Shown piece after piece: positions 34,803 through 42,983 of a stretch of 64,000 nucleotides of DNA (the first letter of the stretch is position 1; each line of letters starts with the position of its first letter). The notes under the pieces were generated by a model that was not told where the DNA came from, ran no database searches, and saw only the letters and a program-made list of their open reading frames with translations. Source of the stretch: Luminiphilus sp. (GTDB taxonomy: Bacteria; Pseudomonadota; Gammaproteobacteria; Pseudomonadales; Halieaceae); assembly GCA_029242325.1 (NCBI GenBank), contig JAQWUD010000038.1, forward strand, positions 164,791 through 228,790. The letters run 5' to 3'. Both the position numbers and the translations under genes were made by a program.

Positions 34803-35609
34803 ATGGAAAGCCTTCCCAGCGGTATTCAATATCGTCACTGGCCAACTCCAAGCGCAAAAGCCTGCGTGCTGCTGGTACACGGACTGGCGGAACATACCGG
34901 CCGCTACGAGCGAGTGGCGGCGCGATTCAATGAGTGTGGTGTCGCGGTGGTGGGCCCCGATCATATTGGGCATGGCGCCTCCCCGGGGGTGCGGTGCCAC
35001 GTCAATCAGTTTGCTGAATATGTAGCCCCGTTAAGCGCGCTGCGCACCCGGATTGGTGATTGGTATCCCGACACGCCAGTGTTTTTGCTGGGGCACAGCA
35101 TGGGTGGTCTGATTGCTGCGCATGCGTTATTCGAGGCGCAAGCATCCTATCGTGGTGCAATGTTTTCGGGCCCTGCCTTTACCGCAGTTGATCCAGTTTC
35201 GTCCTTCACCATCTGGATAGGTCGGTTGCTGCGGAGCCTGTTGCCGAAAATGGGCATGCTTGCCCTCAATGCACAGGAAGTCAGCCGGGACCCTGAGGTG
35301 GTTGCGGACTATCTCGCAGACCCGCTGGTCTTTAGCGGCAAGATCACAACATCCTTGGGTCTCGAGATACTGGATGCGATGGAGGCTGCGCTCGTCCGAG
35401 CAGGAGCATTGACACTGCCGGTGTACATCGCTCACGGAGACGCCGATGTTATGGCGGGGCCCGAGGGTTCCAGCGCGTTTTTCGAAGCGCTGTCGTCAGA
35501 CGATAAGACGCTCGATTTTTGGCCCGGGCTATATCACGAGATCTTCCATGAGCCTGAGGCAGAGGAAGTCATCGCACGCTACGTCAAATGGCTCGAGGCG
35601 CATTTGTGA
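34803..35609 (+). CDS. alpha/beta hydrolase, monoacylglycerol lipase-like
   Basis: VLLVHGLAEHTGRYERVAARF, LLGHSMGGLIAAH (GXSXG), C-terminal GLYHEIFHEPE. Confidence 0.9.
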   Translation: MESLPSGIQYRHWPTPSAKACVLLVHGLAEHTGRYERVAARFNECGVAVVGPDHIGHGASPGVRCHVNQFAEYVAPLSALRTRIGDWYPDTPVFLLGHSMGGLIAAHALFEAQASYRGAMFSGPAFTAVDPVSSFTIWIGRLLRSLLPKMGMLALNAQEVSRDPEVVADYLADPLVFSGKITTSLGLEILDAMEAALVRAGALTLPVYIAHGDADVMAGPEGSSAFFEALSSDDKTLDFWPGLYHEIFHEPEAEEVIARYVKWLEAHL

Positions 35610-36496
35610 GCGTGCCCCGAGCGCTGGTTCTTGGTGCGGGTGGTCAGCTCGGAATGGCCTGCACTGCCCGTTCTCCCGGGTCAATCGAAGTGGTTGGAGT
35701 GACAAGAAGAGAATGTGATATCACTGACTATGGCGCGCTGGAGCGCTGCCTGGATCGGATAGCACCCAAAGTCGTCGTCAATGCAGCCGCCTACACCGCG
35801 GTTGATGACGCCGAAGATCACCCGGAACAAGCGAACGCTATCAACGCTGATGCACCGTCAGCCCTGGCCGAGATCTGTGCCCAACGCGGTGCCCGGCTGG
35901 TACACCTCTCAACAGATTTCGTTTTTGATGGCGCGGGCACGGCACCTTACGCCCCCGACTCGCGAACCGCTCCGCTGGGTGTTTACGGTGCCAGTAAGCT
36001 CATTGGCGAGCAGGCTGTGACTGCCAGTGGCGTCAGCCATGCGGTGGTGCGCACCAGTTGGGTGTATGCAGCGACTGGACATAATTTTTTGCTTACCATG
36101 CTGCGATTAATGCGCGAACGATCTGTCGTGCGGGTGGTAAATGACCAGATTGGTTCACCTACTTCGGCTACCGGACTCGCCGAGATCTGCTGGGCGCTGG
36201 CACTGCGTGAGGAAGTCAGCGGCGTATTTCACTGGTCAGATCGCGGTGAGGTCAGCTGGTATGACTTTGCCTGCGCTATCAGAGATGAGGCAACAGCCCT
36301 CGGGCTGTTGGCTGAACCTGTATCAGTGGAACCCATCGCAAATGAGGCTTTTCCGACCAAGGCGCGGCGACCGCGTTACAGCGTGCTCGACGTCGAGGAG
36401 ACTTGTTCGCTACTGAGGGTGGCGCCACGTCCTTGGCGAGAAGCGCTCCGTGACGTGCTACGGTCGGTCAGCGCAATGGAGGAGGTAAGGCCATGA
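35606..36496 (+). CDS. rfbD: dTDP-4-dehydrorhamnose reductase
   Basis: LVLGAGGQLGMA, VVNAAAYTAVDDAE, STDFVFDG, YGASKLIGE motifs; GTG start overlapping upstream stop. Confidence 0.93.
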   Translation: MSVPRALVLGAGGQLGMACTARSPGSIEVVGVTRRECDITDYGALERCLDRIAPKVVVNAAAYTAVDDAEDHPEQANAINADAPSALAEICAQRGARLVHLSTDFVFDGAGTAPYAPDSRTAPLGVYGASKLIGEQAVTASGVSHAVVRTSWVYAATGHNFLLTMLRLMRERSVVRVVNDQIGSPTSATGLAEICWALALREEVSGVFHWSDRGEVSWYDFACAIRDEATALGLLAEPVSVEPIANEAFPTKARRPRYSVLDVEETCSLLRVAPRPWREALRDVLRSVSAMEEVRP

Positions 36497-37554
36497 CGCG
36501 GTCCCTGATGGTGACAGGGGGTGCTGGATTCATTGGTGTGAATTTTGTCTACCACTGGGCCCTTACCCGGCCTGACGATCAACTCGTAGTGCTCGACGCA
36601 CTGACCTATGCAGGCAATCGAGCCAGCTTGTCGTCCCTCGAGCAAACCAAGCGCATCCGCTTTGTGGAGGGTGACATCTGTGACGCCGCTTTGGTAGCGC
36701 AAGTGATGGCCGCGCACGATATCGACACCATCGTTCACTTTGCCGCAGAGAGTCATGTTGACCGGTCTATCACCGGCCCCGACGCCTTTATCCGAACTAA
36801 TCTTGAGGGCACGCATACGCTTCTGGCGGCTGCTCGCCAAGCGTGGTTGATCGGATCAGGCAGAGAGCATCGTTTCCACCACGTGTCCACCGACGAGGTA
36901 TACGGCGCGCTCACTGCCGCCGATCCGCCCTTTACCGAGACGACGCGTTATGAGCCCAATTCGCCTTACTCTGCGAGCAAGGCCGGCAGTGATCACCTGG
37001 TACGCGCCTACCATCACACCTATGGGCTGCAGGTCACGACCAGCAACTGCTCGAATAATTATGGCCCCTTCCACTTTCCGGAAAAACTGATCCCCCTCTG
37101 CCTTACCCGGATACTTGATGGCGGTCAGCTGCCGGTTTATGGCGACGGAAGCAATATCCGCGATTGGCTGTATGTGGAGGACCATGCTCGGGGGATTGCG
37201 GCGATTCTCGAATCCGGAGCGCCTGGCGAAACGTATAACATTGGTGGCCACAACGAGTGGGCCAACCTCGATATTGTGAAGCAGCTGTGTCGCGTGATGG
37301 ACGACCGCTTTGCGGCGGACGACACGCTCGCATCCCGCTTCCCAAAGGCGCCTCAGGCGCGCGGGAACAGCGCGGAATCTCTCATTGAGTTTGTTGGTGA
37401 TCGCGCGGGACATGACTGGCGCTATGCTATTGATGCTGGAAAAATTGCAGAAGAGCTGGGTTTTATCCCGCAGGAAACCTTCGAGACCGGACTGGTAAAA
37501 ACGGTCGACTGGTACTTGGGCAACGAGGTCTGGTGGCGGCCGCTACTGGGTTAA
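36493..37554 (+). CDS. rfbB: dTDP-glucose 4,6-dehydratase
   Basis: VTGGAGFIGVNFVYHW, HFAAESHVDRSI, YSASKAGSDHLVRAYHHTYGL, SNNYGPFHFPEKLIPL. Confidence 0.97.
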   Translation: MTRSLMVTGGAGFIGVNFVYHWALTRPDDQLVVLDALTYAGNRASLSSLEQTKRIRFVEGDICDAALVAQVMAAHDIDTIVHFAAESHVDRSITGPDAFIRTNLEGTHTLLAAARQAWLIGSGREHRFHHVSTDEVYGALTAADPPFTETTRYEPNSPYSASKAGSDHLVRAYHHTYGLQVTTSNCSNNYGPFHFPEKLIPLCLTRILDGGQLPVYGDGSNIRDWLYVEDHARGIAAILESGAPGETYNIGGHNEWANLDIVKQLCRVMDDRFAADDTLASRFPKAPQARGNSAESLIEFVGDRAGHDWRYAIDAGKIAEELGFIPQETFETGLVKTVDWYLGNEVWWRPLLG

Positions 37555-37652
37555 CGTAGGGGCGTGCCGCGTGCTTACCACTGAGACAGGCACCCGGCGA
37601 AAGCGAAGGCGCGCTTACTGGGTCCGTAACGTCAGGCCAATGCGAGGCCAAT

Positions 37653-38216
37653 TTATAAAGCCGCGTGATTTCTCGCGTCCAATTCCGCCCAACTGATGCC
37701 TTGGTGGTCCTTATCGGAGAGTTGCGGCGGTTCATTGGCAGGGATGGACCATTCAACGCCAATATGCGGGTCATTCCAAGCGAGCGTTACTTCGCTTTCC
37801 GGGCGGTAGTAATCAGTGCACTTATATAAAAAATCGGTGTAATCACTCAGCACGTAAAATCCATGAGCGCAGCCTGGTGGAACCCAAAGCTGTTGATGGT
37901 TTTCCGCACTGAGGGTAACGCCGTGCCACTTACCGTAGCTGGCCGAGTGTTTCCTGCAGTCGACCACCACATCAAAAACGGCACCCGCCAGTACCTGTAC
38001 CAATTTGCCCTGAGGTTGCTCGGTCTGCAGATGCAGCCCCCTGAGAATGCCCCGAGCCGATCGGCTATGGTTGTCTTGGACAAAAGGCAGCGTGATGCCG
38101 GCATCGACGTAGCGCGCTGCATGCCAGGTTTCGAGAAAGAACCCCCGGGAATCGCCGTGTACGGTGGGGGTGATCAGGGTGACACCCGCCAGAGGCGTCG
38201 ACTCAATCTCCATCAA
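37653..38216 (-). CDS. rfbC: dTDP-4-dehydrorhamnose 3,5-epimerase
   Basis: [42 protein letters not shown]. Confidence 0.96.
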
Positions 38217-39111
38217 AAACGGGCCCCGAGTCGCTTACCATCGCTTGCAGGTAGGTGCCGTAACCGCTCTTGATCAGGGGTGCTGCCAGTGCAAGAACCT
38301 GGTCAGCGTCGATATATCCTAGCCGATAGGCTATCTCCTCAAGGCAGGCGACTTTCAGGCCCTGGCGTTCTTCAATTACGCGAATAAAGTTGCCCGCATC
38401 GAGTAGGGACTGGTGCGTGCCAGTATCCAGCCACGCGGTACCGAGGCCCATGACCTCGACGTGCAGCGTTCCCTGCTCCAGATAATGACGGTTCACGTCG
38501 GTGATCTCGAGCTCACCTCGCTCAGATGGGGAAATGGACTTGGCGACTGAGATGACGTCGTTGTCGTAGAAATAGAGGCCCGTCACGGCGTAATGGGAGC
38601 GGGGTTCCGCCGGCTTTTCCTCGATGCCTATTGCTCGGCCCTCACCATTGAACTCGATCACGCCGTAGCGCTCTGGGTCTTGCACGTAATAGGCAAATAC
38701 CGATGCGCCTTGGGTTCGCTGCGCCGCCCGGCGGAGTTTGGAGGTAAAGCCCGCTCCGTAGAAAATATTGTCGCCCAGTAAAAGGCAAACGGGGTCCTTT
38801 GCAATGAAAGCCTCGCCTAGGATGAAGGCTTGGGCGAGGCCGTCAGGGCTATCCTGAATGGTGTACTGAATGTGGACGCCCCACTGACTTCCGTCACCCA
38901 AGAGATCGGCGTATGCAATCTGATCGCGGGGCGTGGTAATGATCAGGATATCCCGGATACCCGATTGCATCAGTGTGGCCAGCGGGTAATAAATCATGGG
39001 CTTGTCATACACGGGCATCAGCTGCTTACTGACGGTCGTGGTCAGTGGATGCAATCGCGTTCCGGACCCGCCGGCGAGAATGATGCCCTTGTATGCAGTG
39101 TGCTCGGCCAT
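38203..39111 (-). CDS. rfbA: glucose-1-phosphate thymidylyltransferase
   Basis: [37 protein letters not shown]. Confidence 0.97.
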
Positions 39112-39275
39112 GATGAAAGGATATCCCAACGGGCGCAGGAGTGTAGCGCCCGTTGGTGTCATTAGCGAGAGGTCACCCCAATGGGTGGCGCTGTACTTGC
39201 CGTCGGGCCATCGATAATATGGCACCCTGACTGCCAACAGTTGCCACCCCTTCGGAGCGACCTATCAACGCCCCC

Positions 39276-40550
39276 GTGCAAACTCCCGACATCGTTCAGC
39301 CGGAAGCCTGCCTGTCTGCCGAGAAGCCCCTTCGAATCGCTCTGCTGGGATATCGCTCTGCGCCTTTCTCGGGAGGGCAAGGGGTGTATCTGCGGTATCT
39401 CAGTCAAGCCCTGGTCGCATTGGGCCACGAAGTGACTGTGATCTCAGGGCCGCCTTATCCACAGCTGGTGGAAGGGGTCGCGCTGGTCAAGTTACCCAGT
39501 CTTGATCTCTATGCCCGGCCGTTATCGAGCGTCACCTTCGCCGACCTCAAAGACAGGCTGGGACGCAGGGAGTGGATCAGTAAGCTAACGGGGGGATTTG
39601 TCGAGCCATGGACGTTTGCCGAGCGCGCGCGCGAATGGCTGTTGCGGCATGCTTCGGAATTTGACGTCATACACGACAATCAAACCTTGGCCGATGGAAT
39701 CCTCGACTTGCAGCGCGCGGGCTTGCCTGTTATCACGACGATTCATCATCCCATCACCCGGGATCTGCGGGTTGCCCTGGCCAGTGAACCACGGTGGTGG
39801 TGGCGGTTGTTGATACGGCGCTGGCATTCCTTTTTGGGTATGCAGGCCAGCGTTGCACGGCAACTCTCTCACATTGTGACCGTATCGAGGCTTTCTGCGA
39901 CTGACATTGCGACCGATTTTGGTGTGATGCCGGCGGTATTAAAAGTCATACCCAACGGCGTGGACACGGCGCTTTTTCGGCCGTTACCGGAGGTGGCACG
40001 GCAATCGAATCAGATTATTGCCACCGCGTCGGCTGATGCACCTTTGAAGGGGCTGTCCACTTTGCTCCATGCGGTCGGCAAGTTGACTCAAAAGCGCCCA
40101 GAACTCCGTCTGGTGCTGATCGCCCGGCCTAAGCCCGGTGGCGATACGGAGAGGGTGATCGACGCGCTTGGACTGGCCGAGCGAATCCAATTTGTTGGTG
40201 GTGCGACCCATGAAGAGATCAATCAGCTCTATGCGGAGAGCGCCGCGGCTGTCGTACCGTCTCTTTACGAAGGTTTTGGTCTTCCAGCGGTGGAGGCAAT
40301 GTCGGCCGGCATCCCCTTGATATCCAGTGATGGCGGCGCGCTGGCGGAAGTCGTTGGGGAGGGCGGTTTGCTCGTGCCGGCCGGCGACAGTGAGGCGCTC
40401 GCCGCCGGTCTGCAGCGGGTCCTTTCCGACGCCGACCTCGCCAGGGAGTTGTCGAACAGAGGCTTGAGGCGGGCGCGGCAGCAGTTTTGTTGGTCGGTGT
40501 GCGCGCAGCAGATGGTCGATGAGTACCGGGCCTGTATCAGCAGATGTTAA
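39276..40550 (+). CDS. glycosyltransferase family 4 (GT-B fold)
   Basis: PNGVDTALFRPLP, VPSLYEGFGLPAVEAMSAGIPLISSDGGALAEVVGEGG; start uncertain. Confidence 0.92.
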   Translation: MQTPDIVQPEACLSAEKPLRIALLGYRSAPFSGGQGVYLRYLSQALVALGHEVTVISGPPYPQLVEGVALVKLPSLDLYARPLSSVTFADLKDRLGRREWISKLTGGFVEPWTFAERAREWLLRHASEFDVIHDNQTLADGILDLQRAGLPVITTIHHPITRDLRVALASEPRWWWRLLIRRWHSFLGMQASVARQLSHIVTVSRLSATDIATDFGVMPAVLKVIPNGVDTALFRPLPEVARQSNQIIATASADAPLKGLSTLLHAVGKLTQKRPELRLVLIARPKPGGDTERVIDALGLAERIQFVGGATHEEINQLYAESAAAVVPSLYEGFGLPAVEAMSAGIPLISSDGGALAEVVGEGGLLVPAGDSEALAAGLQRVLSDADLARELSNRGLRRARQQFCWSVCAQQMVDEYRACISRC

Positions 40551-41269
40551 CGGTTGATCTCAACAGACTGTCACTGCGTCCAGGGCAGCTCTTTCTCGAT
40601 ATCGGTTGCGGAGAGGGCCGCCATACCCTGGCCGCTCACCGAGTGCCCGGCGTGTATGCCTTGGGGCTCGACTTATCGGTCAAGGATTTATCGACGGCAA
40701 TCAGTCGTATTGGAGATATGGCGCCCCATAGCCCTCAGGGAGAAGTCGCCTTTGGGGTCGGTGATGCAACCACATTGCCTATCGCTGATGAGACGGTAGA
40801 CGCCGTGGTGGCAAGTGAGATTCTGGAGCATATTCCCAATTATCTCGTAGTGCTGGAGGAGGTCTGGCGGGTGCTGAAACCTGGCGGTCACTTTTGCCTC
40901 AGCGTCCCCAGGCAATGGCCTGAATGGGTGTGCTGGAAATTGAGTGAGGGCTACCGCAATACCCCGGGCGGCCACATCCGAATCTTTGACGCAATGCATC
41001 TACGTCGCGAGGTCGAGCGGAACGGGTTCTCTTTTATGGGTCGAGGCAGCGCCCATGCCTTGCACGTGCCTTTTTGGTGGCTGAAGTGTCTCTTTTGGCG
41101 CAGCGAGAAAGAGCACAGGCTGGTCACCGCTTATCACAAGCTCTTGGTCTGGGATCTGCTGCGACGCCCGTGGATTACGAGAGTGTTCGACGCACTTCTC
41201 AATCCGGTAATGGGGAAGAGCGTGGTGCTGTATTTTTCGAAGCCCCATCGCAACGACAATCTCGCATGA
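40544..41269 (+). CDS. class I SAM-dependent methyltransferase (Methyltransf_11-like)
   Basis: LFLDIGCGEGRHTLAAH, VDAVVASEILEHIPNYLVVLEEVWRVLKPGGHFCLSVPR. Confidence 0.9.
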   Translation: MLTVDLNRLSLRPGQLFLDIGCGEGRHTLAAHRVPGVYALGLDLSVKDLSTAISRIGDMAPHSPQGEVAFGVGDATTLPIADETVDAVVASEILEHIPNYLVVLEEVWRVLKPGGHFCLSVPRQWPEWVCWKLSEGYRNTPGGHIRIFDAMHLRREVERNGFSFMGRGSAHALHVPFWWLKCLFWRSEKEHRLVTAYHKLLVWDLLRRPWITRVFDALLNPVMGKSVVLYFSKPHRNDNLA

Positions 41270-42303
41270 ATGCGCCCGTTTTCAGCACCGATGTGTATCC
41301 CGCACAGTGGCTTCGCCCAACGGTTGATTTTTTGCTCCGCACCCAGCGTGCGTCGGGCGAGATCCCCTGGTTTGAGGGTGGCCATACAGACCCGTGGGAT
41401 CACGTCGAGGCCGCGATGGGCTTGAGTATTGCCGGTGAGACAGCGGCGGCAATCCGCGCGTATGAGTGGTTGTCCACAATGCAACTTAAAGACGGGAGTT
41501 GGTGGGCCTGTTACCGTGACGGCAAGCCTGATCAAACGGTGGAGCGCCGGGAAACCAATTACGTTGCCTATGTTGCCACGGGTGTCTGGCATCATTTTTT
41601 GATCACGGGGAATCGGGTATTTCTCGAGAGACTGTTCCCAACGGTATCTGCCGCGCTCGATTTTGTTTTGCGCTACCAAAGCCAAGAGGGAGAAATTGAC
41701 TGGGCGGTTGACCCGTCGGGCCGGCCTTTGGGCGATGCATTGGTGACCGGTTGCAGCTCAATATATAAGTCACTCGAGTGCGGGATCCTGATTGCGGACG
41801 AGCTGGGGATTGCGCAGCCGGGGTGGCAATTGGCTCGCGATCAATTGAGGCGAGCGTTACGCGATCGACCGCAGCGCTTTGATCGCACCTGGGAAAGCAA
41901 GGCGCGGTATGCCATGGATTGGTTTTACCCCATTCTCGCTGGCGTGATGAGTGTCGAGGAAGCCGGGAGCCAGCTGGACCGGCGATGGCAAGAGTTTGTA
42001 GAGCCCGGCCTTGGGTGTCGGTGTGAAAACCATCAGCCATGGGTAACCGTCGCTGAATCTTGTGAGCTCACCCTTGCCCTCTTGGCGGCGGGGCGTCATG
42101 AGCAGGCAGTTGAGCTGTTTGGATGGTTAATGCAGTGGCGCGACACCGATGGTGCCTGGTGGACTGGCTACCAGTTTGCCGAGCGCGTACTCTGGCCGCT
42201 CGAAAAGCCCACCTGGACGGCCGGTGCGGTCTTGTTGGCGGTGGATGCGCTGACGCGACATACCGGTGGCAGTGATTTGTTCGGTGGCGTGACCCTGAGA
42301 TAG
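41266..42303 (+). CDS. predicted alpha/alpha-barrel protein (prenyltransferase/terpenoid-cyclase-like or glycosidase-like), function unknown
   Basis: ATGA overlap with upstream gene; helical repeats such as LLRTQRASGEIPWFEGG, WLSTMQLKDGSWWACY, LRYQSQEGEIDWAVD, LMQWRDTDGAWWTGYQF. Confidence 0.65.
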   Translation: MNAPVFSTDVYPAQWLRPTVDFLLRTQRASGEIPWFEGGHTDPWDHVEAAMGLSIAGETAAAIRAYEWLSTMQLKDGSWWACYRDGKPDQTVERRETNYVAYVATGVWHHFLITGNRVFLERLFPTVSAALDFVLRYQSQEGEIDWAVDPSGRPLGDALVTGCSSIYKSLECGILIADELGIAQPGWQLARDQLRRALRDRPQRFDRTWESKARYAMDWFYPILAGVMSVEEAGSQLDRRWQEFVEPGLGCRCENHQPWVTVAESCELTLALLAAGRHEQAVELFGWLMQWRDTDGAWWTGYQFAERVLWPLEKPTWTAGAVLLAVDALTRHTGGSDLFGGVTLR

Positions 42304-42356
42304 CGCAGGGTAACTATTGGATATCAGGCCCGGAGTGCGCTCCGGCAACCGGGGTT

Positions 42357-42983
42357 TCAACAAGCCACGCGCCTGAGGCCGCGTAGGCTCCCAATTGCGC
42401 CGAGCGATTGAAACAATCCTGACTCCTGAGCAAGTCGCCAGATGGTGAACGGCGCTTGCCCACCCTCTGCGGGGTCGGGAAAAACATCGTGTATCGCGAG
42501 GATCCCGCCGGCGCAGACACGAGGTGCCCAACAGCGATAATCGATAAGGGCGGATGCAAGACTGTGTTCGCCGTCGATAAATACCATTCCCAGATCACCC
42601 GACCAGTGACGCGCAAATGTAGCGCTATCCGAAACGATTGGGATCACGGATGGCTCCAGTCCTGCGCCTGCAATATTGCGGCGGAAAGCGTGCAGCGAGT
42701 CGAAGCGGCCATCGGTATCGAGCAGATCCGAGTCGTGATAGCTCTCTCCTGGTTGGTGCTCTTCAGAGCCGCGGTGGTGGTCCAACGCAAGGACAATGCT
42801 GTTGGCCTCTCGCGCAGCTTGTGCCAGCCAAATGGTTGAGCGGCCACAGTAACTGCCCACCTCCAGTAGCGGTCCCAGTGGCGCAGCATCGAGGCCCCAA
42901 TCAAACAATTGCCGGCCCTCATTGTCGGCGAGAAAGCCGGTGACATTGGGGCTTGGAGGCTGGGGCACAACTGAGGGGGGCAT
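42357..42983 (-). CDS. class I SAM-dependent methyltransferase (Methyltransf_24-like)
   Basis: LLEVGSYCGRSTIWLAQAA, LGMVFIDGEHSLASALIDYRCWAPRVCAGGILAIHDV. Confidence 0.85.
   Translation of the reverse strand: MPPSVVPQPPSPNVTGFLADNEGRQLFDWGLDAAPLGPLLEVGSYCGRSTIWLAQAAREANSIVLALDHHRGSEEHQPGESYHDSDLLDTDGRFDSLHAFRRNIAGAGLEPSVIPIVSDSATFARHWSGDLGMVFIDGEHSLASALIDYRCWAPRVCAGGILAIHDVFPDPAEGGQAPFTIWRLAQESGLFQSLGAIGSLRGLRRVAC

Follow-up and report, generated by a model that had tools for sequence, protein, structure and literature searches.

A probable gammaproteobacterial version of the mycobacterial methylmannose polysaccharide gene cluster, near-core in Halieaceae and a SAR86-like order

Introduction

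The 3-O-methylmannose polysaccharide (MMP), a rare sugar chain that binds fatty acids, is usually explained through mycobacterial fatty-acid metabolism, with FAS-I as its proposed classical partner, though not as a strict criterion. The mycobacterial 6-O-methylglucose lipopolysaccharide (MGLP) differs from it in both its sugar and its enzyme set. MGLP is a cytoplasmic polymethylated polysaccharide and a proposed acyl-CoA binder (PMC9883506). The mycobacterial MMP cluster, meT1-mmpH-pmeT3-manT, is known from M. hassiacum (MHAS_04402-04405) and M. smegmatis (MSMEG_6481-6484), the survey in the paper that characterized it being limited to actinobacteria (PMC9883506). The hydrolase MmpH cuts MMP into 4-5-mers and 7-8-mers, ManT extends these products with GDP-mannose, and MeT1 caps free reducing ends; pMeT3 is a likely 3-O-methyltransferase, an activity that is putative even in mycobacteria (PMC9883506). 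Mutation of mmpH in M. smegmatis abolishes MMP and slows growth at 15 C (PMC9883506).

The window considered here is the whole 64,000-nt stretch of Luminiphilus sp. (Halieaceae) DNA that was analyzed. Linked genes for counterparts of ManT, pMeT3, MmpH, and MeT1 are all present in it (Table 1), and we put the probability at roughly 80% that together they are a full gammaproteobacterial version of the four-gene cluster for MMP known from nontuberculous mycobacteria, and work as it does there. All four are orthologous to the mycobacterial genes. The original prediction, made from the DNA alone, placed the four open reading frames correctly and took them to serve a single pathway, with which the present analysis agrees; its suggestion of an undescribed small system is not supported, the barrel protein being an MmpH orthologue and the set the MMP cluster already reported from mycobacteria (PMC9883506). 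The system itself is known, and what appears to be new is the lineage, the near-core status, and the absence of FAS-I.

Results and Discussion

Layout of the locus

Table 1. The four genes of the MMP-type cluster in the window.
Product	Position	Strand	Remarks
manT-like GT4 alpha-(1->4)-mannosyltransferase	39276..40550	+	GTG start, 424 aa; phmmer 7qsg
pMeT3-like class I SAM methyltransferase (putative 3-O-methyltransferase)	40544..41269	+	241 aa; Nonomuraea counterpart, Methyltransf_11
mmpH-like (alpha/alpha)6-barrel endo-alpha-mannosidase	41266..42303	+	345 aa plus stop; phmmer 7qsj
meT1-like SAM-dependent 1-O-methyltransferase	42357..42983	-	208 aa, converges on other three; phmmer 6g7d

The manT-like and pMeT3-like reading frames overlap by 7 nt, and the pMeT3-like and mmpH-like ones by 4 nt, in the sequence ATGA. 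Genes for dTDP-rhamnose synthesis lie upstream of the set and waaA lies downstream. The rhamnose genes (35588-39237) are themselves divided, with rmlD and rmlB on the plus strand and rmlC and rmlA on the minus strand; in relatives, their presence or absence varies independently of the MMP genes.

No signal peptide or membrane segment is present in any of the four window proteins, as expected for enzymes of a cytoplasmic polymer. When they were searched against solved structures, MMP enzymes were the top PDB matches by a very wide margin for three of them (ManT, MmpH, and MeT1).

The barrel protein

The third gene product matches 7qsj, “Methylmannose polysaccharide hydrolase (MmpH),” with a phmmer E value of 1.5e-95 and 47.2% identity to the solved mycobacterial chain. 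Its AlphaFold model (pLDDT 94; the structure-prediction alignment comprised the window and genome loci only, with the Nonomuraea row left out) has an alpha/alpha-barrel fold, and superposes on 7qsj with a TM score of 0.93 and an rmsd of 1.9 A, while folds other than 7qsj score 0.77 or lower (roughly 0.6-0.77). Pfam and NCBIfam give only generic or sub-threshold matches for this protein, and the MmpH-type gene family, unrecognizable from either, can now be named.

The active site is retained: residues D47, W49, D50, E262, E265, and W315 of the M. hassiacum enzyme correspond to D42, W44, D45, E264, E267, and W317 in the window, while F102 is replaced by Y99. Among 101 aligned sequences, E262 and E265 are invariant and D47 is retained in 100. 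In the mycobacterial enzyme E262 is the base, and D47, D50, and E262 have been probed by mutation, the choice between D47 and D50 as catalytic acid being left open (PMC9883506). In 16 of the aligned sequences D50 is naturally replaced by N (L024, L029, L030, L032, L035, L037-L039, L041, L042, L044, L047, L055, L101, L102, and L096, from Nonomuraea); this favors D47, and suggests from the alignment that Asp47 is the catalytic acid.

The repeated G-x-W segments that had led the original prediction to an alpha/alpha barrel are genuine, and the structural comparison it suggested for this protein does return a barrel, of the glycosidase type, with MmpH 7qsj as the best fold; the terpene-cyclase or prenyltransferase type that it also considered does not stand. 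A cassette making a terpenoid glycoside, around a prenyltransferase- or terpene-cyclase-like barrel, could point to a weak SQHop_cyclase_C match (E 0.05, below cut-off) and to one terpene synthase among the distant fold matches (8zg5, TM 0.59), but with the 7qsj match as close as it is, in sequence and in fold, and with the glycosidase catalytic residues retained, its probability is close to nil. As an identity for the barrel itself it is ruled out by sequence and fold, MmpH and other glycosidase folds ranking first.

The mannosyltransferase and its donor

The GT4 protein of the window matches 7qsg with a phmmer E value of 1e-106, the next chain following at 8e-28, and is 46.8% identical to this M. 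hassiacum chain. The PDB labels 7qsg only as a “D-inositol 3-phosphate glycosyltransferase”; it can be recognized as ManT because the residues reported for that enzyme (G15, H142, K240, E313, and E321; PMC9883506) coincide with G, H, K, E, and E in the chain at one constant offset. Of these, K240, E313, and E321 have been probed by mutation (PMC9883506). H142, K240, E313, and E321 correspond to H157, K258, E332, and E340 in the window, and are invariant among the aligned relatives, apart from one row with a gap at H142.

One position departs from this pattern. D293, proposed as a guanine contact (PMC9883506), is H312 in the window and varies widely in relatives. GDP-mannose is accordingly a predicted rather than a proven donor for the window ManT. 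A GDP-mannose synthesis enzyme is present in the window's own genome, and TIGR01479 is above cut-off in 95 of 100 Halieaceae genomes; only 3 of 61 SAR86-like genomes (see below) reach that level for the full canonical GDP-mannose pyrophosphorylase/isomerase recognized by this model.

These observations bear on the idea that the same four orthologous enzymes make a different polymethylated polysaccharide, with another hexose or linkage, by the same make-and-recycle logic. The absence of the D293 guanine contact and the rarity of the canonical pyrophosphorylase in SAR86-like genomes would fit such a polymer, as would the identity of the SAR86-like ManT and MmpH proteins to those of the window, which falls as low as about 28-30%. 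It is nevertheless unlikely, given the near-universal GDP-mannose enzyme in Halieaceae, the closeness of the window proteins to the mycobacterial ones (46-47% identity), and the description of mycobacterial MmpH as highly specific for MMP (PMC9883506).

The methyltransferases

The convergent methyltransferase gene encodes a protein matching 6g7d, which we take to be MeT1 of M. hassiacum, with a phmmer E value of 5.7e-50 (next PDB chain, 0.12) and 45.9% identity to the solved chain. Its motif DHHxGSEExQ is near-invariant in 98 sequences. For the pMeT3-like protein there is no solved orthologue and no characterized homologue; it has a Methyltransf_11 domain match, and a full-length identity of 44.5% to the Nonomuraea protein at the same position. 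Its model (pLDDT 94) finds its best solved folds among sugar O-methyltransferases, AtmM and RebM.

Gene neighborhood in relatives

The four genes occur together in 80 relatives (Halieaceae, Spongiibacteraceae, Microbulbifer, and BD1-7). An absence of such neighbors would have told against a joint system, but they are neighbors almost everywhere. The arrangement is far beyond chance, since partner genes are absent only at contig or locus ends, and the 4-nt MeT3/MmpH overlap recurs across distant lineages, including Nonomuraea. The order and orientation ManT>pMeT3>MmpH><MeT1 is common to Actinomycetota (L096), Halieaceae, and SAR86-like genomes. The meT1 gene lies a few kb away in L058, L061, L063, and L074, and is missing from the available stretch in 3 of 20 more distant loci (L098, L102, and L137).

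Genes found occasionally between mmpH and meT1, for S15-type hydrolases, a PKD-domain protein, a rhamnosyl O-methyltransferase, or PhyH proteins, are not shared between loci and so are not considered parts of the system. An example of such an insertion is L074 (9122-13154), with a rhamnosyl O-methyltransferase/CmcI-type gene, another methyltransferase, and a PhyH dioxygenase.

Construction of a surface glycan or LPS decoration, together with the neighboring dTDP-rhamnose genes, was the function first proposed for the cassette. The rml genes and waaA do adjoin the four genes here, as they do in many Halieaceae. However, many of the 80 loci lack rml genes (e.g., L024, L029, L035, L063, L078, and L080), and in nine SAR86-like loci, from four families, the four genes, ordered and oriented in the same way, sit between ilvE and waaA with no rml genes nearby. 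The cluster thus persists without rml in several Halieaceae-related lineages, in all the SAR86-like loci read, and in Nonomuraea. The set also includes no flippase, polymerase, or lipid-linked transferase, its proteins carry no membrane or secretion signals, and the polymer on which mycobacterial MmpH acts as an endo-hydrolase is cytoplasmic. The link to rhamnose and LPS is therefore not upheld, and a surface role is very unlikely; an intracellular, self-recycling polymer is supported instead.

Distribution

MmpH is carried by 129 of 140 genomes of the window's family, taken as Halieaceae since its closest named loci come from Luminiphilus and Halieaceae (75 of the 78 good genomes, and 27 of 28 genera), and in 98 of 295 genomes across the order. 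Class and phylum samples gave 9 of 274 (7 convincing) and 6 of 299 (3 convincing), the window's genome being among the convincing ones in each case; weak partial matches in G012, G211, G491, and G503 (E about 1e-4) were not taken for MmpH. No relatives were found in viral contigs.

Two of the class matches, G176 and G031, come from an order with genomes of 0.7-1.8 Mb, whose loci, where read, have about 33-37% GC. In this streamlined order MmpH is present in 107 of 121 genomes, including 38 of 39 good ones, and in all four families sampled. The order is very probably SAR86, an assignment made because the exact SAR86-1245 probe site (PMC8701031) falls within the 16S gene: in L121 it is inside the 16S rRNA near position 1240, and the 16S gene of L124 also spans it. 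The exact site is present in 9 of 61 SAR86-like genomes, all within one of the four families. The cluster is, in sum, near-universal, or near-core, in Halieaceae and in the SAR86-like order, both of them abundant among marine bacteria.

In trees of MmpH, ManT, and MeT1, which have long branches and no outgroup, the SAR86-like rows group apart from the rest, and the only two rows from actinobacteria fall next to each other. The actinobacterial side of the comparison draws on the PDB chains, a single Nonomuraea locus, and the published account (PMC9883506).

Comparison with the actinobacterial clusters

The likeness to the mycobacterial cluster extends to all four genes, in the same order as the M. 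hassiacum locus tags, and to cytoplasmic enzymes retaining nearly all active-site residues (the ManT D293 and MmpH F102 positions being the differences described above). The mycobacterial cluster belongs to Actinomycetota, whereas that of the window belongs to Pseudomonadota, is near-universal in its family, occurs without FAS-I, and, unlike the mycobacterial one, is often found at an ilvE/waaA locus.

The Nonomuraea gerenzanensis cluster (L096, 4064-8843) has the arrangement ManT>MeT3>MmpH><MeT1, 44-49% identity to the window for each protein, and the same 4-nt MeT3/MmpH overlap. It differs in having one gene more, for a DUF1702 protein, where mmpH and meT1 meet, an N at MmpH D50, and a GDP-mannose 4,6-dehydratase gene upstream. 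The source record (NZ_LT559118.1, 11.85 Mb) is filed in PLSDB as “plasmid I”; its size marks it as a chromosome.

Searches of the openly readable full-text literature, which leave priority uncertain, found neither MMP nor its genes reported from Proteobacteria or from elsewhere outside Actinobacteria. Nor was a report found there of MMP being isolated from Halieaceae or SAR86-like bacteria, and a Halieaceae genomic survey makes no mention of mannose or methylated polymers.

Proposed working and possible role

We infer MMP to be the product of the locus, least surely for the SAR86-like genomes. The individual enzyme reactions and the physiological role are likewise proposed by analogy, transferred from the mycobacterial enzymes on the grounds of orthology, active sites, and gene set. 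A mature chain would number about 11-14 3-O-methylmannoses in alpha-(1->4) linkage, and MmpH would cleave it to short oligomers; ManT would elongate these as primers with mannose from GDP-mannose; MeT3 would methylate the newly added units at O-3; and MeT1 would cap O-1 of the free reducing end with a methyl group. In this way, pieces of old chains would serve in the cytoplasm as the starting points from which new ones are copied. The polymer would probably shield fatty acyl chains or acyl-CoA, and aid growth in the cold.

A search for FAS-I (PF08354), in which the C. glutamicum control was positive, found it neither in the window's genome nor in any of the 61 SAR86-like genomes. FAS-I regulation therefore cannot be the role of the polymer in these genomes. 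Our best guess is acyl-CoA or fatty-acid shielding alongside FAS-II and beta-oxidation, or else cold adaptation.

A broader proposal, to which we would give somewhat less than even odds, is that a self-replicating cytoplasmic polymethylated polysaccharide is near-core in Halieaceae (OM60/NOR5) and SAR86, perhaps with another sugar in the latter, and has a role beyond FAS-I. If this is true, the polymer would there serve a different and broader purpose, in the handling of fatty acyl chains or in adaptation to cold. The near-core presence of the intact cluster in free-living marine bacteria, even in those with genomes of about 1 Mb, suggests a general use independent of FAS-I, and the cultivable, non-pathogenic Halieaceae offer a setting in which the long-standing question of MMP function might be tested.
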